Below are positions 18,573 through 31,110 of a DNA stretch of 64,000 nt, piece after piece. Source of the stretch: Prolixibacteraceae bacterium (GTDB lineage Bacteria; Bacteroidota; Bacteroidia; Bacteroidales; Prolixibacteraceae); the NCBI GenBank assembly GCA_025355875.1, contig JANXYV010000009.1:1-64000 (forward strand), written 5' to 3'. The notes under the pieces are model-generated. The model saw only the letters and a program-made list of their open reading frames with translations. It was not told the origin of the DNA and searched no databases. Numbering within the stretch: position 1 is the first letter of the stretch; the number at the start of each line of letters is the position of its first letter. The translations under genes were made by a program, and so were the position numbers.

Positions 18573-19001
18573 CTATTTAGCTACCGAACGCAAATATTCA
18601 ACCACTGAGCGGGCCTTGTCCTGAGTCAATTCAGGATTGGTCATAACAATGTTGTTGTACTTTTTAATCAGCGCTTTGATATTCGCGTTTTCCTTTTGCA
18701 TCTGTGAAGTATTTAATAGCAGATTCATGATGTATTCAGGAGCGCGGTCCTTGGTGATATTCCTCAACGGCGGGCCAATTTTCACCTGATCCAGTTCATG
18801 GCAAAGCATACATTTCTCATTGAAAATGCCTTTCCCCTGGGAGACCATTTTCGGGTCGAGAGCGGCATCAATTTTCACACTTTTTATGGGCCCGATGCCT
18901 AAATCCTTTGCCTGCGCAAAAGACTGATTCAGTCCTAAGGTTAAACAAACGATCGAAACAAACACGAAGGAAAAGATTGGAAAGCGAAATTTGGTTCTCA
19001 T
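18573..19001 (-). CDS. Small periplasmic c-type cytochrome
   Basis: A 142-residue class I-like cytochrome c. It has an N-terminal hydrophobic export signal (about residues 8-30, ending SFAQA) and one haem motif CMLCH at residues 64-68. The sixth haem ligand is probably the Met in NIVMTNPELT. It would shuttle electrons in the periplasm. It starts 18 bp after the stop of the Cyc2-like gene upstream on the same strand, so the two are almost surely one operon and may exchange electrons. The C-terminal helix (QDKARSVVEYLRSVAK) is typical of mono-haem cytochromes. Confidence 0.85.
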   Translation of the reverse strand: MRTKFRFPIFSFVFVSIVCLTLGLNQSFAQAKDLGIGPIKSVKIDAALDPKMVSQGKGIFNEKCMLCHELDQVKIGPPLRNITKDRAPEYIMNLLLNTSQMQKENANIKALIKKYNNIVMTNPELTQDKARSVVEYLRSVAK

Positions 19002-19019
19002 ATAGTTGATTTTTAAGTT

Positions 19020-20375
19020 TTAAAAATTAAACCAGGCTAATAAATATAAGGTATTGTTGTGTGCAGCATTCCTGCCAGCCCCGTCGTAATTACTTGAACT
19101 TCCGTCAAATTTACCATAGGTAACATATTGAATAGAGAATTTTGTATTGTACCAGGGCAAATATTCAAGCTGATAGATGATTCCACTACTGTTTGGCTTA
19201 TTCGTTGCGCTGGCCACTACATCTGCATCTTCGGTACCTGAGGAATTAAAGTAACCAATCGTACCACCCAATCCATTTCTAAAATAAAGGTTTCCATCGA
19301 TTTTAAAGGAAGTGAAATCGAAGTTCTTAACATCCGAATTTCGGTTTTCAGATTCTTTTATCAGAGCGGAATGCAAAGTGAATGAACCCACTCGTAAGGT
19401 TTTTGCATAAGAAAAATCAAACCCAAGGTCGGTAAAACTGTCCATCTCACCTTTAATTCCGGAGATATAATGGTTCGACGACATTCCAAAAGTACCCAGT
19501 TCGAAATAATTACTATCCCAAGTGTGCTGAAGCGCAATGCGCCAATAAGGCGCTATTCCTTTTAGAGTCATGGAACTGGTCGAATCTGCAGGATTGGCCG
19601 CACCCTGGGGCGACGATCGGTAAACGGTTAATTCTGCAAAAACAAGGTTTCCAAATAAACCGTAGGCTCCGAGTCCGGCAACCTGCATCCCAAGGTTTTC
19701 AATAATGGTCGATTTTGCCGGCGTCGGAGCTGCAGGGGAAGATGCATAAGGAAATCCCCAGGCGGGAGTGGTATTCCAACCGTCCTGAACAGTTGGATTA
19801 TTGTTCAAGGTTAAGCCCCAGGCCAGACTTTTCGATCCGATGGAGGTTGAGTTCGAATAACGGATGTCAGCATTGTCCATCCCAAAGGTTTTACCATCAT
19901 AGGTAGTTTGTATGAATGTACCGATATGTGGGGTAATTTGTCCTGCATAAAACAAGCTCAATTGCTGAGGAAAGGCCACCGAATTGTTTTGTTGCCCGGG
20001 AACATCCTTGGCAATGTGGGTAAACGAGGTTTGCAGCATGGCTGATAATGGCAATGCACTAAGTAATTTCAAACGGGTTACCCGGTCGCTGTCCTCCTTG
20101 GCATCAATAGTATTCATCATCGTCATGGTGTAGCCGTTCAATTTAAACTGCCTCCCGAAAGGAGTAAGTTCAGGAAACGAATAATGACAGGCTGTACACG
20201 ACATTCCTGTTTGTCGCGCAAAACTTGGCAAAGCATCTGCCACACCAGCATTCACAAGCAGGACAAGCGAAATGATGATCAGTTTGTACATGGATCTACG
20301 CGATTGGCAGGAACCCTCCCTTTTCATGGCATCTGTCTTGAGGCCAACTTTACCTGACTGAATTTTTTCTTTCAT
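19020..20375 (-). CDS. Cyc2-like fused outer-membrane cytochrome-porin
   Basis: A 451-residue protein with a single haem motif CTACH at residues 60-64 right after the signal peptide, then a long beta-rich region ending in an aromatic residue (LLAWFNF), as outer-membrane barrels do. The segment around the haem, LPSFARQTGMSCTACH then FPELTPFGRQFKLNGYT, matches the hallmark of Cyc2, the fused cytochrome-porin of iron oxidisers (FARQTG before CxxCH, a P-x-L motif after it, then FGRxFKLxGY). It may carry electrons across the outer membrane. ATG 20375 gives a 28-residue tail before the signal core; ATG 20291 (MYKLIIISLVLL) would begin exactly at the signal and is an alternative. Substrate unknown: distant Cyc2 relatives are not all iron oxidases. 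Confidence 0.72.
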   Translation of the reverse strand: MKEKIQSGKVGLKTDAMKREGSCQSRRSMYKLIIISLVLLVNAGVADALPSFARQTGMSCTACHYSFPELTPFGRQFKLNGYTMTMMNTIDAKEDSDRVTRLKLLSALPLSAMLQTSFTHIAKDVPGQQNNSVAFPQQLSLFYAGQITPHIGTFIQTTYDGKTFGMDNADIRYSNSTSIGSKSLAWGLTLNNNPTVQDGWNTTPAWGFPYASSPAAPTPAKSTIIENLGMQVAGLGAYGLFGNLVFAELTVYRSSPQGAANPADSTSSMTLKGIAPYWRIALQHTWDSNYFELGTFGMSSNHYISGIKGEMDSFTDLGFDFSYAKTLRVGSFTLHSALIKESENRNSDVKNFDFTSFKIDGNLYFRNGLGGTIGYFNSSGTEDADVVASATNKPNSSGIIYQLEYLPWYNTKFSIQYVTYGKFDGSSSNYDGAGRNAAHNNTLYLLAWFNF

Positions 20376-20984: not shown

Positions 20985-21746
20985 CTACTTTTGGACTTTC
21001 CTCTTTCTCGTCAAATCCAGCAACCCATTTATAATCGTTAGCGGATGGGCCGGATTACCAGGAATATATAAATCAATAGGATATTTATCCAAAAAGCTGC
21101 GGTCAACAGCCGAACCTTTTCCCAAAATTCCTCCGCTTATTGCATCAGTTCCAACCAACACAATGATCTTGGGTTCGGGAATGGCATCGTAACAAATCTG
21201 TAAAGGAACAGCCATGTTTTCAGTAATCGGTCCGGTAATCACAATCCCGTCAGCATGACGCGGCGAGGCCACAAAATCGATCCCGAATCGGCTCATGTCG
21301 AACTGAACATTGTTGGCTGCATTGAGTTCCATTTCGCAACTATTATCGCCGCCGGCACTCACCTGCCTGAGTTTTAAAGAACTTCCCAGCACCTGACGGA
21401 TATCCTTTCGGATAGTTTCCAAATTCACTTCAATGGGTTTTTCTTCGCCTTCTTTGACAATGAGACCTAGGCGATCATTACTTGCAAGTTTATAATCGGT
21501 TGTAAATCGGATCTTATTTGGAAATTGCCGGGCACATTCGCCACAGAAGGAACATTTCCCCAGGTCGATGCTCACCGGATTTGCCGTAATTGCATCCAGC
21601 GGGCACAATTCAAGCAGTTCGGCCTCATTCACTTTTTCAAGACTGATGACAGGTCGCCCCCTGAAAATACCTGGAACTTTGGCCGTGGTAACATCAGGAA
21701 TGAACTGTTTGCCCTGATGATAGACTATTTTTACATTATCGAACAT
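20985..21746 (-). CDS. Ehr/hydrogenase-4-type small subunit (ferredoxin + NuoB-like), cluster ligands lost
   Basis: A 253-residue fusion of a ferredoxin-like part and a HyfI/HycG (NuoB-like) domain. Residues C48, C65, C68 and C71 (CPLDAI, then KCSFCGEC) can hold one 4Fe-4S cluster. In the NuoB-like part the fold motifs are clear (SPRHADGIVITGP, AISGGI, YIPGNPAHP). However, three of the four ligands of the proximal cluster are replaced: Asp134 and Asp201 stand where HycG has Cys, and Asn231 is in the PGCP position; only C137 remains. So it probably lacks the N2-type cluster. I start at 21746 (MFDNVKIVYHQ), because the extra 27 residues from 21827 look untranslated. Last gene of the seven-gene operon. 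Confidence 0.82.
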   Translation of the reverse strand: MFDNVKIVYHQGKQFIPDVTTAKVPGIFRGRPVISLEKVNEAELLELCPLDAITANPVSIDLGKCSFCGECARQFPNKIRFTTDYKLASNDRLGLIVKEGEEKPIEVNLETIRKDIRQVLGSSLKLRQVSAGGDNSCEMELNAANNVQFDMSRFGIDFVASPRHADGIVITGPITENMAVPLQICYDAIPEPKIIVLVGTDAISGGILGKGSAVDRSFLDKYPIDLYIPGNPAHPLTIINGLLDLTRKRKVQK

Positions 21747-21870
21747 GGTGTCGTGTTTTATTTTTTTCTCATTGGGCAAAGCCCATTTTTTTGTGTTTTC
21801 ATTCCCGCTGACTGAAGCCAACAGCAAAGGATATCGCTTTGATGATTAGTTCAGCGATATTCCTGAACCA

Positions 21871-21915
21871 GACTCCCTAAAGCTTTCCCCTGTCGGGGGA
21901 ACGGGAAGGGGGCTT
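21871..21915. repeat. GC-rich hairpin element inside the Ehr-like operon
   Basis: In otherwise moderate-GC DNA, TTCCCC at 21885-21890 pairs with GGGGGAA at 21895-21901 around TGTC, nested between AAGC and GCTT. The sequence reading CCCTAAAG then the C- and G-rich arms resembles dispersed palindromic repeats in Bacteroidota. It sits in the 174-bp gap between the large and small subunit genes, where it could reduce expression of the last gene. Confidence 0.45.
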
Positions 21916-21920
21916 CATTT

Positions 21921-23420
21921 TTATAAATCGTGGCCTGAATACGACAGGTTGAAACTCTTGTTGCAAATAGGAAAATCAGAAATCTCGTTATTCCTGACTG
22001 CTAATGCCAATGCCAGCCAGTTGTGAAACGACGGATCTTTCACTTTATACAAAATCAGTTCACCCTGACTATCGGTAATCGTGCAATGGCAGATTTCGCC
22101 TCGCCAGCCTTCAACCAGTGAAAGCGTAAATGAATTCGGTTTCGGACTTTCAAAAGAAGCTTCATTTTCAGAAACTTCAGGAACATTCTGTATCAGGTTC
22201 CGGATGTATTGCATCGATTGTTTCACTTCCGCCTTTCTGATCTGAACCCGGGAATAGACATCGCCATGGTGCTTGATGATCGGTTCGTGCGCGATCTCCG
22301 GATAAAGTCCAAACGGATGCGATGAACGAATATCCCGGTTCAGCCCACTCATCCGGGCGGCCATTCCAACGGTTCCGACCGATAAAACATCGTCATACGA
22401 AACTACCCCGGTCCGTTCAAATCGCGACAGCGCACTGGGCAGCTGAAACAACTGCACATTCATTTCCAAAAAATGAGGCTCATAAATATCAAGAACTCCT
22501 GTAAGCCGGTTCGCCAGTTCCGGTGAAAAAGGAAACGGATTTCGACCCGGCCTGATCAATCCTTTGGACAAACGATTACCACACCATTCCTGCATGAAAT
22601 TGATGATTGGTGTGCGCAGACGACCGAAAACTGAACTTCCAAGCTGATAGGCAATGTCGGTACAAACAGCACTTAAATCGCCGGTATGAACCGCCATTCG
22701 TTCCAATTCAAGTGCCAAGGTTCTGGAAAATTCAATGTCATGCGAAACTTGTATTCCGCATATACTTTCCCATACCTGTGAAAAAGCAGTAGTGTGACCC
22801 ACGACGGTATCTCCGGCAATAGATTCTGCGATAGTGCTGCGCTGAAGCAGTTTCTTTTTTTCCAGAAATTGTTGTTCAATGCCGCGATGCTGGTATCCCA
22901 GTTGTATTTCGAGATGAAGAATTTGCTCGCCATTGCAGATAAACCGGAAATGTCCGGGTTCAATAATTCCGGCGTGAATGGGCCCGACGCCAACTTCGTG
23001 CAGTTCGTCGCTTTCGATGGAGAAAAACGGATAATTGGCAATGGTTTTAGATTGATCGGCCCGGTTATGCGCATAACGAACCGGTTTCAACCACGGATGA
23101 TCAGTATAATTGATACCGAAATTTTCACAAATCTCTCGTTCAAACTTTTCGAAGTTGAAATTCTTTGCCGTGAATGAATCAAGGGTATCCGACGCTTTGA
23201 CTAAACACGAAGACAGGTAAATCTGATGCGTTTGATCGTCGGCAATGCAGCAAATCAGTTTAATATGTGAATCAACCGGATACCCAAAATAGTTGACGCA
23301 ATGCCGTTCAGGAGCACCGGTCAGAAAACCGGTATTCAGCCCGAAAAATTCATAGTAACCTACTTCCGGAATTTCAGCCACCGAGATGGTCTGTTTGTTT
23401 ACTATCGTAGTGTAATTCAT
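21921..23420 (-). CDS. Ehr/hydrogenase-4-type large subunit (NuoC-NuoD fusion) without Ni-Fe ligands
   Basis: A 499-residue HycE/HyfG homologue. Residues 1-125 are NuoC-like (FEREICENFGINYTDHPWLK). The rest is NuoD/hydrogenase large-subunit-like (GPIHAGIIEPGHFRF, LGYQHRGIEQ, LELERMAVHTGDLSA, EGWRGEICHCTI). The four cysteines that bind nickel in true group 4 hydrogenases are absent: the first pair is Ala202 and Thr205 (ESIAGDTVVGH), and the second is Ser493 and Gly496 at the very C-terminus (NLSYSGHDL). It cannot be a Ni-Fe hydrogenase in the usual sense. This matches the Ehr (energy-converting hydrogenase-related) class known from Geobacter. The start is six bases after the upstream gene, with probable translational coupling. 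Confidence 0.88.
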   Translation of the reverse strand: MNYTTIVNKQTISVAEIPEVGYYEFFGLNTGFLTGAPERHCVNYFGYPVDSHIKLICCIADDQTHQIYLSSCLVKASDTLDSFTAKNFNFEKFEREICENFGINYTDHPWLKPVRYAHNRADQSKTIANYPFFSIESDELHEVGVGPIHAGIIEPGHFRFICNGEQILHLEIQLGYQHRGIEQQFLEKKKLLQRSTIAESIAGDTVVGHTTAFSQVWESICGIQVSHDIEFSRTLALELERMAVHTGDLSAVCTDIAYQLGSSVFGRLRTPIINFMQEWCGNRLSKGLIRPGRNPFPFSPELANRLTGVLDIYEPHFLEMNVQLFQLPSALSRFERTGVVSYDDVLSVGTVGMAARMSGLNRDIRSSHPFGLYPEIAHEPIIKHHGDVYSRVQIRKAEVKQSMQYIRNLIQNVPEVSENEASFESPKPNSFTLSLVEGWRGEICHCTITDSQGELILYKVKDPSFHNWLALALAVRNNEISDFPICNKSFNLSYSGHDL

Positions 23421-23425
23421 CTCTC

Positions 23426-24853
23426 TTAAATTGGTAATAACATGACACTTTCCTTGATTAGCTGAACAAATTCAGCTGGAGGGTTTAATCCCAGATAAAC
23501 AGCAAGCGCAAAAAGAAAGAACTGGGTCGAAGATTCCCATGGGCTGATGACCGGCACATGTGAATCGTCAAATCCGACCGGCGGAACAAAAAGTATTTTC
23601 ATGATATTTTTTCCGAATGCCCAGATAATCATGGTCAGCAGAATCAGAACAATCACAAGGAGGACGATCTGATGCGCTTCGAAAAGTGATCTGAAAATCA
23701 GGAATTCGCTCACAAACATTCCGGAAGGAGGCATAGCCGTTACACTGATGAATCCCAGTAAAAGCACCATGGCACCGGCGGTATTGTATTTGAAATAATT
23801 GCCGACATGGTAAATGCTTTTATTCTGAAATACGCGGTACAACTGGGTGAATTGAAAGAACATCCCTGATTTTACCAGTGCATGAAGAATAATGTGAAGG
23901 ATAGCTGCATAATAACCGATTCCTCCCGCAGCAACCCCAAGCATCACTAAACCCATGTGTTCGATGCTCGAATAAGCCATCATACGCTTGATGTTTTTGA
24001 CTTTGATCATGTAAACCGTCGCTACAAAAACCGACAGAAATGCGGCAATTCCGATCACGAGGTTAGCCCAATGATGCAATGGAGTGTTGGCAACAACAAT
24101 GTAAAATCGGAATATCCCAACAAACCCGAGGTTCATCAATACGCTCGAAAGCAAAGCGCCTGCCGGAGCCGGAGCCTTGTCTTTGGCGTCGATACCGGCC
24201 GTAAACATCGGCACAAGTCCCAGTTTGGCCGTAAAACCTGTAAAGATAAAGAGAAACGAAAGTTTCAGCCAGAATGGATTTAAACGGGCACTGTTGGACA
24301 GGAGGTTTTTAAACGACAAATCGTCGGAACCGGCATGTTCCAGGGAAAGGCTTAAAAACAAAATGCCAATGAACACAAAGGTAATGCTGATGGCACATAT
24401 AAACACATATTTCCAGGTTCCTTCGAGCGCCAGCTTATTTCTATGGTGATAAATGAGTGCCGATGCGCTTAAGGTGGTGATTTCAGTAAAAATCCAGGTA
24501 ACGGCAATGTGATTCGACAGGTAACCGGCACTGATTGCCGTGAGCAACAAAACAATCGCACCATAATAGATTGCCCTGGCATCGGGAGGTGCAGGCTGAT
24601 CTTCCAGATAAATATGGCTATGAATGACTGCCGGGATTGAAATGATAAACAAGGTGCCCAAGAGTAGGATCGCCAGTGAATCATAGGTGAAATAGCTCCA
24701 CTCGGTGGAATGAAAATTAAAGTAGGCGTGAAACGTTAATGCTCCCTGAAGGATCAGGAAAAAGCCAAGCAACACAAACGACACGATTTTATTCCTGTTC
24801 AGAAATAAAGCCAGTGCGATTGATAATGCTCCTATCAGATAAATCCCTATCAT
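23426..24853 (-). CDS. Ehr/hydrogenase-4 HyfF-like membrane subunit (Mrp/NuoN type)
   Basis: A 475-residue, roughly 14-helix antiporter-like subunit. The conserved Glu of the proton channel is in VTWIFTEITTLSASALIYHH. The discontinuous-helix region contains FTAKLGLVPMFTAGIDAKDKAPAPAGALLS... with Lys and His residues, and IKRMMAYSSIEHMG follows. It should translocate protons or sodium. Its length (475-526 is usual) and its place directly before the large subunit match HyfF. All expected charged residues seem to be kept, in contrast to the redox subunits. Confidence 0.85.
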   Translation of the reverse strand: MIGIYLIGALSIALALFLNRNKIVSFVLLGFFLILQGALTFHAYFNFHSTEWSYFTYDSLAILLLGTLFIISIPAVIHSHIYLEDQPAPPDARAIYYGAIVLLLTAISAGYLSNHIAVTWIFTEITTLSASALIYHHRNKLALEGTWKYVFICAISITFVFIGILFLSLSLEHAGSDDLSFKNLLSNSARLNPFWLKLSFLFIFTGFTAKLGLVPMFTAGIDAKDKAPAPAGALLSSVLMNLGFVGIFRFYIVVANTPLHHWANLVIGIAAFLSVFVATVYMIKVKNIKRMMAYSSIEHMGLVMLGVAAGGIGYYAAILHIILHALVKSGMFFQFTQLYRVFQNKSIYHVGNYFKYNTAGAMVLLLGFISVTAMPPSGMFVSEFLIFRSLFEAHQIVLLVIVLILLTMIIWAFGKNIMKILFVPPVGFDDSHVPVISPWESSTQFFLFALAVYLGLNPPAEFVQLIKESVMLLPI

Positions 24854-24888
24854 GTTTTTTTATTTAAATCTTTATTTTTTGCTGATCA

Positions 24889-25521
24889 TCAATAGTCTTT
24901 CAAACTACTCAACTGGTCGACATCCACATCTTTGAATACATCACCGATTTTATTCAGGAAGATGCCCAAAATAAGCACGCTGGCGAAAATATCGAGCATG
25001 ATTCCAAGGTTCACCAACATCGGCATTTCATTTCCTACCGCGAGTGAAAGGACAAACACACCATTTTCAATGATCAGGTAGCCGATGACGTGAGTGATAA
25101 TTTTACGCCGAGTGGCAATGAAATACAAACCGGTGAAAAGCGACGACAAAGCGACGACAAAAAAGATCTTTTCCAGGTGATCGTCTTTCACCCCGTTGGC
25201 CAGCAAAATGGTAACCACAACAATTAAAGTGGTGATAATCAGCGAAACGAAATTCGGCAGATATGGCTCCGCTTCACGGGTTATATTGTTACGCTTCAGC
25301 ACATAGGCCATAAAAAGCGGTACTGCCACCGATTTGAAAACAATGGTTTCAAGCAAAATTAAGGCAAGGTTTACCGGATTAATTTCATTCAACTGAATGA
25401 ATACTACGACAAAAAGCAGCACACCCTGAAAAGCAAGTACTTTCAGATAAGTCAGCATTCGGTTGGCTATCGCGATATAGAACAGCGTAATAATGAAGGT
25501 GATAAGCAATACATCTATCAT
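24889..25521 (-). CDS. Ehr/hydrogenase-4 HyfE-like membrane subunit
   Basis: A 210-residue polytopic membrane protein corresponding to HyfE (about 216 residues), which contains a NuoK-like segment. About six to seven hydrophobic helices are visible, with few charges (a Glu in LILLETIVFKSVAVPLF, and ENGVFVLSLAVGNEMPMLV, the NuoK-like part). It would be part of the ion channel of the complex. The gene is 35 bp after its upstream neighbour's end on one side and 18 bp on the other, all on the minus strand. Confidence 0.8.
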   Translation of the reverse strand: MIDVLLITFIITLFYIAIANRMLTYLKVLAFQGVLLFVVVFIQLNEINPVNLALILLETIVFKSVAVPLFMAYVLKRNNITREAEPYLPNFVSLIITTLIVVVTILLANGVKDDHLEKIFFVVALSSLFTGLYFIATRRKIITHVIGYLIIENGVFVLSLAVGNEMPMLVNLGIMLDIFASVLILGIFLNKIGDVFKDVDVDQLSSLKDY

Positions 25522-25539
25522 GAGTATAGAATTTACAGG

Positions 25540-26445
25540 TTAAGCAAACTTTCCTAAAATCAGCAAAACGCCAAAGAAAATCAGCAGACTGACCGAAGTC
25601 AGGACGAAAATAAACTGGGCATTGTGGCTCATCCGGAAACGGGCCATAAACGATTCAATCAAACCAACGCCGGAAGCCAGTACCAACTGAATGACAAAAA
25701 ACATTGGAATCGAGTACTGGTAAGGGAAGACTCCAATAAACAGATTGACTACCAATGCTCCATACAAAGCAAATTTCAGGTATCCGGCAGTGAGAATCAG
25801 TCCAAGATCAAATCCGCTGTTGTCGAGAATCATCACTTCGTGAACCATCGTCAGTTCAAGGTGCGTTTTTGGATCGTCAATCGGCATCCGACTGTTTTCG
25901 ACCATCGCCACCATCATCAGCACAAAAGCTCCCAGAATAGCCAGCGCATAGCTGATGTACGAACCGATGTGCAAAGCAGCGAACATTTCCTGAAAAGAAG
26001 TGTGTCCGGTGAGCAAAGCCAGTGATCCCATCAGAATAAAAAAGGCAGGTTCGGCAAACATGGAATAAAGCGCCTCGCGGCTGGCACCCATTCCTTCAAA
26101 ACTGCTACCGGTATCCATGGCCGAAATGATGCTGAAAAACTTTCCCAGCGCCAGCACATAGGCGAAAAAGATAAAGTCGCCGTTGAAACTGATGATTCCT
26201 TTGGATTGCCCGAATGGAACGACCAACATAGCCATAACCACCGATGAAAAATAAATGGTTGGCGCGATCTGGAACACAAAACTTGTCGTTTCGCTGTACA
26301 CAACTCCTTTTTTAAAGAGCCGGGACACATCTTTCAAAGGCTGAAAAACACCTGGTCCCTTGCGCCCTGAAGCCAGACTTTTTACCCGGATGATAATCCC
26401 GGTGAAAAAACTTGCAGCGATAATGATTAGTATTAAACTCAGCAT
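25540..26445 (-). CDS. Ehr/hydrogenase-4 HyfC/HycD-like subunit (NuoH type)
   Basis: A 301-residue membrane subunit of the NuoH/HycD family, which links the redox arm to the ion channels. Visible landmarks are the cytosolic loop RKGPGVFQPLKDVSRLFKK near residue 30, GMGASREALYSMFAEPAFF near residue 122, and VENSRMPIDDPKTHLELTMV near residue 185. These acidic loops line the quinone or redox end of complex I-like machines and are intact here. It begins one base after the stop of the preceding HyfB-like gene, indicating tight coupling. Confidence 0.88.
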   Translation of the reverse strand: MLSLILIIIAASFFTGIIIRVKSLASGRKGPGVFQPLKDVSRLFKKGVVYSETTSFVFQIAPTIYFSSVVMAMLVVPFGQSKGIISFNGDFIFFAYVLALGKFFSIISAMDTGSSFEGMGASREALYSMFAEPAFFILMGSLALLTGHTSFQEMFAALHIGSYISYALAILGAFVLMMVAMVENSRMPIDDPKTHLELTMVHEVMILDNSGFDLGLILTAGYLKFALYGALVVNLFIGVFPYQYSIPMFFVIQLVLASGVGLIESFMARFRMSHNAQFIFVLTSVSLLIFFGVLLILGKFA

Positions 26446-26446
26446 A

Positions 26447-28474
26447 TTAGATTTGCTTTATAAATTCAAAAAACAAGACGATCTGATCGTAAAAGTATGG
26501 GATACAAATGATTGAAACAATAAAAATGATCCCGTATAAAATATAGAATTGCAACCGGCCATTCTGAAGGAACAAAAACCTTCCGAGAAAAGCCTTGTAA
26601 GCCGCAATCGGATTATCGATAAAATATTTTTCAATCCGGTCGTAGATGTGTGTTTCATACATTCCACCGGTTGGGAAAATCCCTTCAACTTCCTTTTCGG
26701 TCTTGGAAGTCATCAGGATGGGCCGGAAAAGTTTGCTGTATGCCCTTACAAAAGAACTGGCTGTGTATTGAATTTTCACGGTTGGCTGAACATATCCACA
26801 TCCCCAGGTTGTATTGACGACCACTTTCCGGTTTTGCATAGCGAACTTTCGGATGACGAAAGTTGCTAAAATAATTAGGATAAATATCCAGATTCCCCAG
26901 TTCAGAGGCTGAAGAATTCCGGTAATCTGATCCTGAAAAGGCAAACCGGCATTGACCGAAAATCCGGCGAGCAGATTAACCGGCAAAGCAAGTGCATTCA
27001 GGAAAATTTGCGGTATAACTCCGATCGAAATGATTAAAAATGCGATCAGGTAAAGCGGTAAAAGTTGCATTGCCGGAACTTCCTTCACTTCGTGATGAAA
27101 CTTCTGACGGGGATTTCCAAGGAAAACGATTCCGAAAGCTTTGGTGAAACACAACATCGCCAAACCACCGATCAGAACCAAAGCCAATACTGAAAATATG
27201 ATGGTCATCAGCGGGCCCACCAATCCATCCTTCATCCAGTGATAAAATCCGTTGTAAATGATGAATTCCGAAATAAACCCGTTAAAAGGTGGAATACCAC
27301 AAATGGCAATCGCAGCGATCAGAAACAACAAAGCGGTTTGCGGCATCTTTTTGATCAGACCTCCCAAATGCTCGATATGAAGCGTGTGGGTCGCCTGGTA
27401 AACATTTCCCGCGGTAAAAAACAAAAGCGATTTAAACAGGGCATGGTTTAATGTATGGAACAAGGCACCGGCAAATCCAAGCGAGGCCAGCCATGCATTC
27501 CCATTTCCGATACCGATGCAGCCAATTCCGATACCCATCCCGATGATGCCAATGTTTTCGATGCTGTGGTAGGCCAGAAGCTTTTTCAGGTTGTGCTGAA
27601 CAATGGCCAGCATCACACCATACAAACCTGAAATTACTGAAAATATCAGGATAATCAGGCCAATGGTATAAAAATCAACTTTAATTAAAGTGATCATCCG
27701 CAGTATTCCGAAAATCCCGATTTTAATGATCACGCCCGACATGATTCCAGAAACGTGTGCCGGAGCGGCTGGGTGTGCGTATGGAAGCCAGGTATGAAAA
27801 GGTACAAATCCGGCCTTGATGGCAAAGGCAACGAAGAAACACAAAAACAACAAAAGCCCTGGCGCGCCCTGATTGGCTGAGGTGTATGCGGTGATAGCAA
27901 TAAAATCATAACTTCCGGTTTTGAAAGCCACCCAGATAAAACCAATCATCAGGAAAACAATTGAAACGTGCGATTGAATGAGGTAGTTCCAGCCGGCCCT
28001 GAGAGTAGCCATTTTTTCGTGCTCAAAAATGACCAAAAGAAATGCTGAAAACGCCATAATCTCCCAGGCAACCAGAAAGACGATGCTGTTCTGGATTACG
28101 CAAAGGCTAACCAGAGCCGTGTGCAAAAGAACGAAAGCGATGCTGTGCAGCGAAAGGTTATTGGTCTGATTCCGGTAAGTTTTCATGTAAAACAAACCGT
28201 AAAAACCTCCGGTAATAAACACAAAATTGATGATCAGGATAAACCATCCGGCAAGCGCATCAATCCGGATATTCACCGGTCCGGTTACCAGACTTCCCGA
28301 AAAGGCAAATGCTGAAAGTTCTTCGGAAAGGGATTCAATGGCCAGATAACCGGAAAGAAAAGCATTTAAAACGATAGCCGTTAACAATACTACGCCCTTA
28401 CCCTTTGCTTGCAGAAAGGGAATCAGCAATATGGTAATTACTGCTATCGCCAAAAATACTGTAATCAGGTTCAT
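26447..28474 (-). CDS. Ehr/hydrogenase-4 HyfB-like subunit (NuoL type), copy 1
   Basis: A 675-residue antiporter-like subunit. The NuoL-type channel Glu is in VFLVAWEIMAFSAFLLVIFEH near residue 136. The Lys and His motifs are in FAIKAGFVPFHTWLPYAHPA and SGIMSGVIIKIGIFGILR, and HNLKKLLAYHSIENIG follows. The C-terminal ~150 residues include a HyfB-like tail with TTWGCGYVQPTVKIQYTASS. It should carry out ion translocation. Its start overlaps the stop of the upstream copy by four bases, and the two proteins are clearly paralogous. Confidence 0.87.
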   Translation of the reverse strand: MNLITVFLAIAVITILLIPFLQAKGKGVVLLTAIVLNAFLSGYLAIESLSEELSAFAFSGSLVTGPVNIRIDALAGWFILIINFVFITGGFYGLFYMKTYRNQTNNLSLHSIAFVLLHTALVSLCVIQNSIVFLVAWEIMAFSAFLLVIFEHEKMATLRAGWNYLIQSHVSIVFLMIGFIWVAFKTGSYDFIAITAYTSANQGAPGLLLFLCFFVAFAIKAGFVPFHTWLPYAHPAAPAHVSGIMSGVIIKIGIFGILRMITLIKVDFYTIGLIILIFSVISGLYGVMLAIVQHNLKKLLAYHSIENIGIIGMGIGIGCIGIGNGNAWLASLGFAGALFHTLNHALFKSLLFFTAGNVYQATHTLHIEHLGGLIKKMPQTALLFLIAAIAICGIPPFNGFISEFIIYNGFYHWMKDGLVGPLMTIIFSVLALVLIGGLAMLCFTKAFGIVFLGNPRQKFHHEVKEVPAMQLLPLYLIAFLIISIGVIPQIFLNALALPVNLLAGFSVNAGLPFQDQITGILQPLNWGIWIFILIILATFVIRKFAMQNRKVVVNTTWGCGYVQPTVKIQYTASSFVRAYSKLFRPILMTSKTEKEVEGIFPTGGMYETHIYDRIEKYFIDNPIAAYKAFLGRFLFLQNGRLQFYILYGIIFIVSIICIPYFYDQIVLFFEFIKQI

Positions 28475-30477
28475 TTCAAGATATTAACAACTGTCATCAG
28501 AAAAATGGCCAGCATAAACACAATTCCATACCAAACGTACGATTGTATCCGGCCATTCTGAATAAATTTAAAATAATTTGTTGCATAAACGAGATGATGG
28601 GTCACAAAGTTGATCACACGATCTTCAAAGAAATCGAGGTAATGTGAGGCATGTTTCCGGGGTTTTGGAAAAATTTCGCCAACACTCAGTTCCTTGTATT
28701 TTTTTTCTTCGATCAGGAGAAAACCAAACATTTTCCCGAGTGATTTCGAAAAAGATTTGCCGGTATATTGCATGCGACTGTTTGGCGCGACATAAGCACA
28801 TCCCCAGGAGGGCTGTATTTGCTTTGATTTTCCTTTTGCAATATAGGCACGCAGAATCCAGATCAAAGCTGCCAACCCGATAAACAACATTGAATAGATG
28901 TTGACATTTGCTATTGTTCCTGCTGATTCTGTAAATCCTGATGCTCCGCCATGGACAAATCCCGGAATAAAATTTCCAAGCAATGAACTAAGAATATTCA
29001 GGTAAAACTGCGGAACAAAAGCCACGCTCAACATAACGGCAACAATCAGGTATTGAGGCACCAGCATGATCTTTGAAACTTCTAACGGCTTATGTTCGTG
29101 GGATTCTCTTTCCGATCCCAGAAAAATCGTTCCAAAAGTTTTGGTAAAAGTCAATACTGAAATTCCACCGATAATGCTTAATCCGGCCAAAGTAAAAACG
29201 AGCAGACTGATCTGGCTGAGATTATCCGATTTCAGACCTTCGAGAAGTCCGCTGTATAAAATGAATTCAGAAATAAAACCATTAAAAGGTGGCAAGCCGC
29301 CAATGGCTATGGCTCCAATCAAAAAAAGAATCGCTGTTTTTGGCATTCTTTTGATTAATCCGCCCAGTTTATCCATATCTCGGGTATGTGTTTGCTGGTA
29401 TACCGAACCAGCGGAATAAAAAAGCAACGATTTGAACAACGAATGATTTAAGACATGCAGCAGTGCACCACCAAATCCGAGGTAGTACAAAACCGGCGAC
29501 CCGGTTCCCATCCCAATCAATCCCAAACCCATGCCAATACCAATAATTCCAATGTTTTCGATGGTGCAATAAGCAAGCATTCGTTTGAAATCGCGATGAA
29601 CTGCAGCATTCAGGATTCCGTAAATTCCGGTTAAAACCGAAACGGTAACCACTATTTCGCCCAGAAGTAAGAAATCGCTTTCCAGGAATGAAATCATCCG
29701 GAAAATCCCGTAGATTCCAAGTTTTACGATCACTCCCGACATTACGCCGGAAACATGCGATGGAGCTGCCGGGTGCGCATGAGGCAACCAGGAATGCAAA
29801 GGAACAAATCCGGCTTTGATCCCAAAACCGACGAAAAAAATCAGGAAAAGCCAGAGATTGCTGTTCGAACCAAAGAAAGTCCGGACTGCCAAAAAGCTAA
29901 ACGACCCTGTTTGAAAGTAAACCCAAATGAATGCAACGGTTAAAAACGTCACGCTGATGTGCATCTGTACCAGGTAATTGATCCCGGCCTTGAGCGTTTT
30001 GGGCTTGTCGTAATCGAAGATAACCAGCAACATCGACGACAATGACATCACTTCCCAGGCCACCAAAAATACCAGGCTGTGCTGCAACATGCACACCCAA
30101 ACCATGGAAAGATGAAAGAGAATAAACAAAGTCCAGTGCAGATTAAGCTTAGATGCCGGATTATCGTAGGCTTTCAGGTATCCGGAACCATACAGGGCGC
30201 CGGTAATGGAGGTGAAATTTATTATCAGGATAAACCAGGCTGATAAAGTATCAACCACAATCTGAACATTGCCGAGCATGGCTCCGGCATAAAAGTTAGA
30301 TTCAAAAGTTCCTTCAGTCAGGACGTGGTAAGCTATAAAACTGGTCAGAATTGAATTCAAAAATATGACTAATACAGCCAGATTGGCCTTTAACCTGATT
30401 GGTAAAAAAAACAGGCTGAGTATGCCTAATAAGCTTATTGCAAACGAATAATATAAAAATGATCCCGAGATTCCCAT
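28471..30477 (-). CDS. Ehr/hydrogenase-4 HyfB-like subunit (NuoL type), copy 2, first gene of operon
   Basis: A 668-residue paralogue of the next gene. It has the same motifs: channel Glu in FLVAWEVMSLSSMLLVIF, GIKAGFVPLHSWLPHAHPA, SGVMSGVIVKLGIYGIFR, RDFKRMLAYCTIENIG, and the tail QPSWGCAYVAPNSRMQYTGK. Two tandem HyfB-like subunits plus the HyfF-like one give three antiporter-type modules, as in complex I. The ATG at 30477 opens a minus-strand operon of seven genes with gaps of 174 bp or less. A minus-strand TTACTTTG at 30509-30516 is a near match to TAnnTTTG and may be its promoter. Confidence 0.87.
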   Translation of the reverse strand: MGISGSFLYYSFAISLLGILSLFFLPIRLKANLAVLVIFLNSILTSFIAYHVLTEGTFESNFYAGAMLGNVQIVVDTLSAWFILIINFTSITGALYGSGYLKAYDNPASKLNLHWTLFILFHLSMVWVCMLQHSLVFLVAWEVMSLSSMLLVIFDYDKPKTLKAGINYLVQMHISVTFLTVAFIWVYFQTGSFSFLAVRTFFGSNSNLWLFLIFFVGFGIKAGFVPLHSWLPHAHPAAPSHVSGVMSGVIVKLGIYGIFRMISFLESDFLLLGEIVVTVSVLTGIYGILNAAVHRDFKRMLAYCTIENIGIIGIGMGLGLIGMGTGSPVLYYLGFGGALLHVLNHSLFKSLLFYSAGSVYQQTHTRDMDKLGGLIKRMPKTAILFLIGAIAIGGLPPFNGFISEFILYSGLLEGLKSDNLSQISLLVFTLAGLSIIGGISVLTFTKTFGTIFLGSERESHEHKPLEVSKIMLVPQYLIVAVMLSVAFVPQFYLNILSSLLGNFIPGFVHGGASGFTESAGTIANVNIYSMLFIGLAALIWILRAYIAKGKSKQIQPSWGCAYVAPNSRMQYTGKSFSKSLGKMFGFLLIEEKKYKELSVGEIFPKPRKHASHYLDFFEDRVINFVTHHLVYATNYFKFIQNGRIQSYVWYGIVFMLAIFLMTVVNILK

Positions 30478-30648: not shown

Positions 30649-31110
30649 TTAAACCATCGGAAACACATCAATAAAATCAGGTATTTCAGGAAGGAAGGCG
30701 TAATTGTTGGAAGTATAATTGATTTGGCAGCAGTAATGGTTAAGTCCATTGCTGACAATCAGGAATTTCACTTTCAGCTGCATGTTGTACCTGACGATCT
30801 GATCGAATGTGTCCTGACTGATTTTAACTTCCGGAGCTTTAAATTCTGCAACTAAAACCGGGTTTCCTGAGCGATCGAAAACAACCAGATCGGCCCGCTG
30901 CGGATTGTTGTTCACTTTTAAACCAGCTTCAACAACGATTAGCGAAGGAGAATAATTCTTCTCATTCAACAGAAATTGTACAAAATTCTGGCGAACCCAT
31001 TCTTCCGGAGTAAGGCGGACAAATTTTTTTCGGAAGGAATCAAAAATCATGGATTTTCCTTCCTTGGTTTTGATCCGGAAAGAATATTCGGGCAAATTCA
31101 ATTTTTGCAT
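30649..31110 (-). CDS. Stand-alone HsdR_N-like PD-(D/E)xK nuclease-fold protein
   Basis: A 153-residue protein resembling the N-terminal nuclease domain of type I restriction R subunits. The active-site pattern is visible as QRADLVVFDRSGNPVLVAEFKAP near residues 72-91: Asp, then Glu-x-Lys after a beta strand. An upstream Glu in IVVEAGLKVN may complete it. There are no helicase, methylase or specificity genes nearby, so it is not a restriction system in this context. Short proteins of this kind near amn and holA are a frequent Bacteroidota arrangement in my recollection, with no known role. It is divergent from amn. Confidence 0.75.
   Translation of the reverse strand: MQKLNLPEYSFRIKTKEGKSMIFDSFRKKFVRLTPEEWVRQNFVQFLLNEKNYSPSLIVVEAGLKVNNNPQRADLVVFDRSGNPVLVAEFKAPEVKISQDTFDQIVRYNMQLKVKFLIVSNGLNHYCCQINYTSNNYAFLPEIPDFIDVFPMV

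Follow-up and report, generated by a model that had tools for sequence, protein, structure and literature searches.

It has long been asked how a reaction in the head of complex I drives ion pumps that lie far from it, and the locus described here raises this question in the form of what could drive such pumps when the redox sites of the head are lost. The window, i.e. the whole analysed stretch of 64,000 nucleotides (positions 1 to 64,000 of contig JANXYV010000009.1, assembly GCA_025355875.1, Prolixibacteraceae bacterium), carries seven minus-strand genes, from 30477 to 20985, which form a complete complex of the group 4 hydrogenase/complex I type. The initial annotation of this DNA had described seven genes for a complete membrane arm with a large and a small subunit, and all of them were found on the minus strand. 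In the course of evolution this complex has lost its Ni-Fe site, its proximal cluster and the ligands of quinone, whereas its coupling subunits and pumps have stayed under selection and three replacements have become fixed where N2 used to be. In the most likely mechanism, to which we give about an even chance, ion translocation is coupled to a binding or protonation event in the acidic pocket formed there, perhaps gated by the one remaining cluster.

Part of the evidence comes from the small subunit, EhrS. In direct alignment with HycG, HyfI and NuoB the residues Asp134 (codon GAT), Cys137 (TGC), Asp201 (GAT) and Asn231 (AAT) sit on the cysteines of the proximal cluster, in agreement with the earlier claim that three of its four ligands are replaced by Asp134, Asp201 and Asn231. 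Also in profile alignment with solved chains, the HycG stretches GGCNGCE, GACGNSGG and IPGCPP lie over the D/C, D and N sites of EhrS, respectively. Sequencing error, tested as a refutation, was excluded, as dozens of other genomes have the same substitutions, and among the aligned relatives the Asp, Asp and Asn replacements were kept across the window's group, which is mostly from Bacteroidota (74, 75 and 75 of the 77 rows, respectively).

These rows belong to an alignment of 96 EhrS sequences, a sample enriched for the window's relatives by design, so that 77 of 96 is not a frequency. At the four positions 58 rows had DCDN, 19 had CCCC and 19 had other combinations, including DADN (five rows), DTDN (three), DSDN and DGDN (two each), and DCEN, DADH, GDDN, ADDN, DDHS, DVDN and EHDN (one each). 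All 77 rows other than CCCC had Asp or Glu at position 134 or 137, and the three rows without Asp134 had the carboxylate at 137 (GD, AD) or Glu134 (EH). At most one proximal cysteine was left in these 77 rows and none in 18 of them; where Cys137 was lost, position 137 was occupied by Ala, Ser, Thr, Gly, Val, Asp or His. The leftover Cys137, kept in 59 rows, is evidently dispensable, and the acidic site consisting of the carboxylate at 134 or 137, Asp201 and Asn231 is, judged by its conservation, under selection. At two loci, L085 and L088, position 137 and not 134 carries the acidic residue (G-x-x-D and A-x-x-D), so that the pocket seems to require a carboxylate without its position being fixed.

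The structural model of EhrS (predicted local distance difference test, pLDDT, 91.7; predicted template modelling score, pTM, 0.89) superposed on 6cfw_J with TMt 0.81 and a root mean square deviation of 1.7 over 127 columns, and that of EhrL, the large subunit (pLDDT 89.3, pTM 0.91), had 7z0s_E as its top fold match (TMq 0.88). The fold is therefore predicted to be kept without the cluster. Model confidence was low in EhrL residues 146-152 and 495-499, near the old active site. The kept fold, together with the conservation of D, D and N exactly at the ligand positions, also speaks for a metal or Fe-S cluster still held at the proximal site by Asp, Asp, Asn and partly Cys, in which case the complex would work like other complexes of the energy-converting hydrogenase-related (Ehr) class. 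In known proteins, a [4Fe-4S] cluster may have Asp as one of its ligands. However, the 18 rows without cysteine at all four positions indicate that a thiolate is not needed, and no [4Fe-4S] cluster is known to be ligated entirely by oxygen and amide groups. An unusual cluster or metal at the site is therefore improbable, although a metal other than a cluster may be present.

In EhrL, HycE was the best solved match, and in profile alignment with the solved HycE chain of the E. coli formate hydrogenlyase (FHL) the HycE motif CGICG lies over aGDtv and the motif CYSC near the HycE C-terminus over SYaG. This alignment bears out the initial annotation, according to which the four Ni-Fe cysteines are replaced by Ala202 (GCC), Thr205 (ACC), Ser493 (TCG) and Gly496 (GGC). 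Asp204, Ser493 and Gly496 were invariant over 83 EhrL rows, of which 64 belong to the window's group and 19 to the four-cysteine type; five of 89 rows, shorter than about 430 residues, had been dropped from the alignment. Position 205 was never Cys and position 202 was Cys in one of the 64 and five of the 19 rows, so that none of the 83 rows had a complete CxxC at the first Ni-Fe site, and all had Ser and Gly at 493 and 496. EhrL also ends just past the position of the second Ni-Fe motif, where the solved HycE chain has 33 residues beyond the matched stretch; in hydrogenases such a C-terminal extension is the part cut off by the maturation protease. No match to HypD was found in the window's genome (5.18 Mb in 230 contigs, 97.93% complete) or in 24 more of the 36 genomes of the group, some of which are incomplete assemblies, and HypD was present in the other 11. 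Its absence in 25 of 36 genomes implies that Ni-Fe maturation is not needed.

A function as hydrogenase was thus rejected on the absence of the Ni-Fe ligands and of HypD. The positions of His38 and Tyr87 of Nqo4, the quinone-holding residues of complex I, correspond to Ile153 and Gly203 in EhrL, and a function as quinone reductase is disfavoured because they are not kept. The position of Nqo4 Asp139 corresponds to Asp255, which is conserved. Because EhrL has no CxxC at the first Ni-Fe site and Ser and Gly at 493 and 496, and EhrS at most one proximal cysteine, the electron sink appears to be gone.

Upstream of the lost sites, a single ferredoxin-type cluster remains in EhrS. HycF, HyfH and NuoI have two four-cysteine motifs, of which EhrS retains the last cysteine of motif 1 and the first three of motif 2, three motif 1 cysteines and the final motif 2 cysteine being gone. 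By complex I numbering this set would be cluster N6b, which we take to be the ferredoxin cluster nearer the old proximal site. The other ferredoxin cluster was complete in ten of the 19 four-cysteine rows and in four of the 77 rows of the window's group (L093, L096, L100 and L109), which group together on the tree. The cysteine-motif alignment confirms that electrons can reach at most one ferredoxin-type cluster, as had been supposed, and by this alignment the electron path ends at one cluster facing the conserved acidic pocket at the site of the former next cluster. The pattern fits a stepwise loss in which the Ni-Fe site disappeared first, then the proximal cluster and then the first ferredoxin cluster, with independent losses of this last cluster among the four-cysteine rows.

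The same cluster could be the centre of a redox pump, in which a soluble carrier, e.g. ferredoxin or flavodoxin, reduces it and the reaction that follows one electron hop to a substrate or cofactor bound in the emptied proximal/Ni-Fe cavity drives ion pumping. All 96 rows have its four cysteines, the other ferredoxin cluster being broken in 73 of 77, and EhrS, EhrL and HyfC are strongly conserved; the presumed nearness of N6b to the old proximal site would also suit such a hop. A redox pump explains the invariance of the four cysteines better than coupling to the acidic pocket does. Clustering of the genes neighbouring 80 loci, however, revealed no general dedicated partner and no partner oxidoreductase gene recurring beside the operon, the most shared families being present at six loci each, and no acceptor site of a known kind remains, so that an unseen acceptor would be needed. 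We consider the redox pump the main rival of coupling to the pocket, possible but less likely.

The membrane arm shows no corresponding losses. In HyfB1, Glu142, Lys221, Lys252, His345 and Lys349 were present at 44 of 44 loci and Lys446 at 43, and in HyfB2, Glu138, Lys220, Lys251, His344, Lys348 and Lys445 at 44 of 44 loci, where loci with a single HyfB gene may count under both subunits. Asp90, Asp111, Glu132, Glu183, Glu197, Glu203 and Asp208 of HyfC were present at all 48 loci, Glu152 and Asp177 of HyfE at all 50, and Glu124, Lys210, His324 and Lys328 of HyfF at all 53. The antiporter Glu and Lys motifs are consequently not only present in the window, as first noted, but conserved across loci, and the set of ion-path residues of the membrane arm is complete.

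Among the 48 DxDN loci with the five shared subunits, the median identity to the window was 71.5% for HyfC, 66.8% for EhrS, 64.8% for HyfE, 62.7% for EhrL, 58.0% for HyfF, 52.4% for HyfB2 and 46.5% for HyfB1. The ratio of nonsynonymous to synonymous differences (pN/pS) against L102, L037 and L040 was 0.15-0.20 for EhrS and EhrL and 0.26-0.38 for the HyfB subunits, with synonymous changes near saturation. By these values the head subunits EhrS and EhrL are evidently under purifying selection and at least as constrained as the antiporter-like subunits. A decaying relic, to which the loss of several redox sites, the separation of the small-subunit gene from the operon in some genomes and one L035 EhrL reading in two frames might point, is hardly credible in view of this selection, the conserved replacements and the many genomes in which the operon is complete and its ion-path residues are intact.

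What would then move the pumps is most directly sought in the pocket. Because no wire leads past the remaining cluster, the moving event would be binding or protonation in the pocket, i.e. the binding or release of a proton, a cation or a small ligand, replacing the change of cluster charge. The pocket would be located where the coupling chamber of complex I begins, and HyfC would relay the change to the three antiporter-like subunits, with H+ or Na+ being translocated or exchanged. For the single cluster this would leave a role as redox gate or structural element and not as part of a through wire. That the emptied N2 site has in this manner become a proton, cation or ligand site made of carboxylate, Asp and Asn, which drives the ion pumps or is driven by them, with conformational coupling without a redox reaction in a machine that no longer serves electron transfer, is proposed tentatively, as the less probable side of the question. 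Two points weigh against coupling to the pocket. The conservation of the cysteines of the remaining cluster in every row seems to exceed the need of a purely ion-driven machine, and speaks against one unless the cluster is structural or a gate. Furthermore, the modelling covered the fold of single subunits, and an open pocket connected to HyfC is presumed. If ions were moved without a redox reaction, coupling would be separated from electron transfer.

Ion flow could alternatively be coupled to vectorial CO2 or bicarbonate chemistry, as in the DAB complex, whose NuoL-type subunit powers a carbonic anhydrase reaction with no transfer of electrons. DAB2 is proof that coupling of this kind exists (PMC13144422). 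At five loci (L081, L088, L091, L098 and L109) a SulP transporter gene lies directly downstream of the operon on the same strand, at a distance of 6 to 285 bp, and at L085 one lies 7.7 kb away. At L088 (5998-10140) EhrS is followed in one direction by SulP, a weak carbonic-anhydrase-like protein (22.9 bits, cut-off 25.7) and a porin-like protein. SulP proteins carry other anions too. SulP was rejected as a general partner, as 21 of the 36 group genomes, including the window's own, had no SulP match, and neither EhrL nor EhrS has a carbonic anhydrase fold, none of the DabA type being among the fold matches listed for them; CO2 chemistry is accordingly quite improbable as the function of the complex.

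The distribution of the acidic site was followed in two samples. The first survey comprised 395 genomes of the phylum, drawn evenly, of which 16 besides the window's own genome (L006-L021) had an Ehr-like large subunit with at least 36% identity, further matches being complex-I-like with 30% identity or less. The small subunits of 15 of these were aligned, L021 having no EhrS row: L006 alone shares D-C-D-N and the other 14 have four cysteines. The second scan, of the genome collection, gave 541 relatives of the protein in the window, of which the best 80 were kept; of its two patterns, one fixes Cys or Asn at 231 and the other leaves 134, 201 and 231 untouched. Of the 75 scan loci other than CCCC, 71 were titled Bacteroidota and the other four Phycisphaerae, Spirochaetes, Spirochaetia and Brocadiaceae, most of these loci being from metagenome assemblies. 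Within these best 80, the sequences nearest to EhrL and EhrS came from Bacteroidota, including L102 of the Prolixibacteraceae (82% for EhrL); genes neighbouring the operon in the window also recur at L102 and L035. Isolates carrying the DxDN type were Chryseolinea serpens and two Arcticibacter.

In the EhrL tree of 86 rows, which was built quickly without bootstrap or approximately unbiased (AU) test, the D-x-D-N group needs at most two changes, and the starred branches force one. The four-cysteine L007, on a long branch, was placed in an unresolved fork with DxDN rows. The tree is compatible with a single origin of the DxDN group. Loss of the proximal cluster, predicted for 77 rows of the enriched sample of 96, is evidently not a general feature of Ehr complexes and marks a separate group inside them. 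The family coded f18 includes both types, L006 with DxDN and L011, L013-L016 and L019 with four cysteines, which suggests horizontal transfer. In the Brocadiaceae locus L092 (1-10759), a second Ehr-like pair lies directly upstream of the DxDN operon, with four proximal cysteines in its small subunit and no CxxC motifs in its large subunit. EhrS was found apart from the operon at L077, L079, L080, L083 and L087. A new use of the free-standing subunit was considered; in three of the five genomes, however, EhrL was present at another place, and in the remaining two it was not found.

The coordinates of the genes and sites are collected in the table, together with the Pfam matches of the seven genes. 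HyfE also matches the NCBIfam family hydrogenase 4 membrane subunit below its cut-off (73.2 bits, cut-off 136), and the best solved match of HyfC was FHL subunit 4. EhrS most likely starts at ATG 21746 and not at TTG 21827 of the open reading frame list, because the relatives examined start at the equivalent place and the residue numbering of the initial annotation fits this ATG. The operon includes no NADH module, and two further NuoD-type genes are present in the genome. Directly upstream of the operon, on the same minus strand (30649-31110), there is a stand-alone HSDR_N_2 protein (134.4 bits). Downstream (18573-20375, minus strand), a small c-type cytochrome (Cytochrom_C, 32.6 bits) lies beside a porin-like protein of 451 residues that contains a CxxCH motif and matches neither Pfam nor NCBIfam families. 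No matches to these two were found at the other 80 Ehr loci.

Table. Genes and altered or retained sites of the Ehr-type complex in the window.
Feature	Position	Strand	Match or conservation
HyfB1 (EhrA-like), NuoL/HyfB-type antiporter-like subunit, 668 aa	28471..30477	-	Proton_antipo_M 186.8 bits
HyfB2 (EhrA-like), second NuoL/HyfB-type subunit, 675 aa	26447..28474	-	Proton_antipo_M 183.6 bits
HyfC, NuoH-type membrane subunit, 301 aa	25540..26445	-	NADHdh 122.1 bits
HyfE, HyfE-type membrane subunit, 210 aa	24889..25521	-	Oxidored_q2, weak (23 bits, cut-off 26.1)
HyfF, NuoN/M-type antiporter-like subunit, 475 aa	23426..24853	-	Proton_antipo_M 142.7 bits
EhrL, HycE/NuoCD-type large subunit without Ni-Fe ligands, 499 aa	21921..23420	-	Complex1_49kDa 109.5 bits
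EhrL A202-G203-D204-T205, in place of first Ni-Fe CxxC	22806..22817	-	Alignment with HycE; D204 kept 64/64
EhrL S493-Y-S-G496, in place of second Ni-Fe CxxC, C-terminus	21933..21944	-	S493, G496 kept 64/64
EhrS, ferredoxin domain fused to HycG/NuoB-type small subunit, 253 aa	20985..21746	-	Oxidored_q6 74.8 bits
EhrS C48, ligand of sole remaining ferredoxin-type cluster	21603..21605	-	96/96 rows
EhrS C65, C68, C71, other three ligands of same cluster	21534..21554	-	96/96 rows
EhrS D134 and C137, first two proximal-cluster positions (C-x-x-C to D-x-x-C)	21336..21347	-	D134 74/77, C137 59/77
EhrS D201, third proximal-cluster position	21144..21146	-	D 75, E 1, H 1 of 77
EhrS N231, fourth proximal-cluster position	21054..21056	-	N 75, H 1, S 1 of 77

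In comparison to known systems, the DAB complex (DabA/DabB) works on a NuoL-type subunit without a through wire of electrons, a likeness that would hold if coupling to the acidic pocket is right; its head (PMC13144422) is not homologous to that of the window's complex, which is not a member. Among the membrane-bound complexes of Pyrococcus, Mbh and Mbs (6cfw, 6u8y), the solved chain that EhrS matches best in sequence is MbhJ, whose proximal cysteines (CNGC, GAC and PGC) are replaced in EhrS. Complex I (NuoB/D/H/L/M/N) shares the folds, the ion-path residues and the Nqo4 Asp139 position (Asp255) with the window's complex, which differs in having no NADH module, no N2 site and Ile153 and Gly203 at the His38 and Tyr87 positions. 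The Hyc and Hyf complexes of E. coli have the same subunit types and include the closest solved relatives of EhrL and HyfC and, for EhrS, the second closest by sequence and the first by fold. Unlike them, the window's complex has no Ni-Fe motifs, no ligands of a proximal [4Fe-4S] cluster, one ferredoxin cluster instead of two, the ferredoxin fused to the small subunit and no C-terminal extension after the second Ni-Fe motif.

The Ehr complexes of Geobacter, Nitrospirales and others resemble the complex described here in having group-4-type subunits, NuoL-like and HyfE-like membrane subunits, EhrL, EhrS and no Ni-Fe ligands (PMC7894505, PMC10284858, PMC12342949). The Ehr-type reading of the initial annotation is supported by the group 4 homology, the absent Ni-Fe ligands and the Ehr-like subunit set (NuoL-like EhrA, HyfE-like EhrC, EhrL and EhrS, compared with PMC7894505), and the complex fits an Ehr-type complex from a distinct group. 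Ehr complexes are described as lacking Ni-Fe ligands and as being of unknown function (PMC12342949 of 2025, PMC10284858 and PMC6349859); HydDB leaves them out as not metabolising H2 (PMC5037454), and the Ehr proteins of Geobacter had a higher abundance on formate (PMC7894505). No description of an Ehr group without the proximal cluster was found in the literature searched, which missed key comparative papers. The proximal site is intact in the four-cysteine Ehr rows (19 here, none named Geobacter), whereas the window's group has D-x-D-N, and Ehr, a widespread class, thereby gains a subgroup that can be recognised by a sharp and testable signature and that includes three named isolates.

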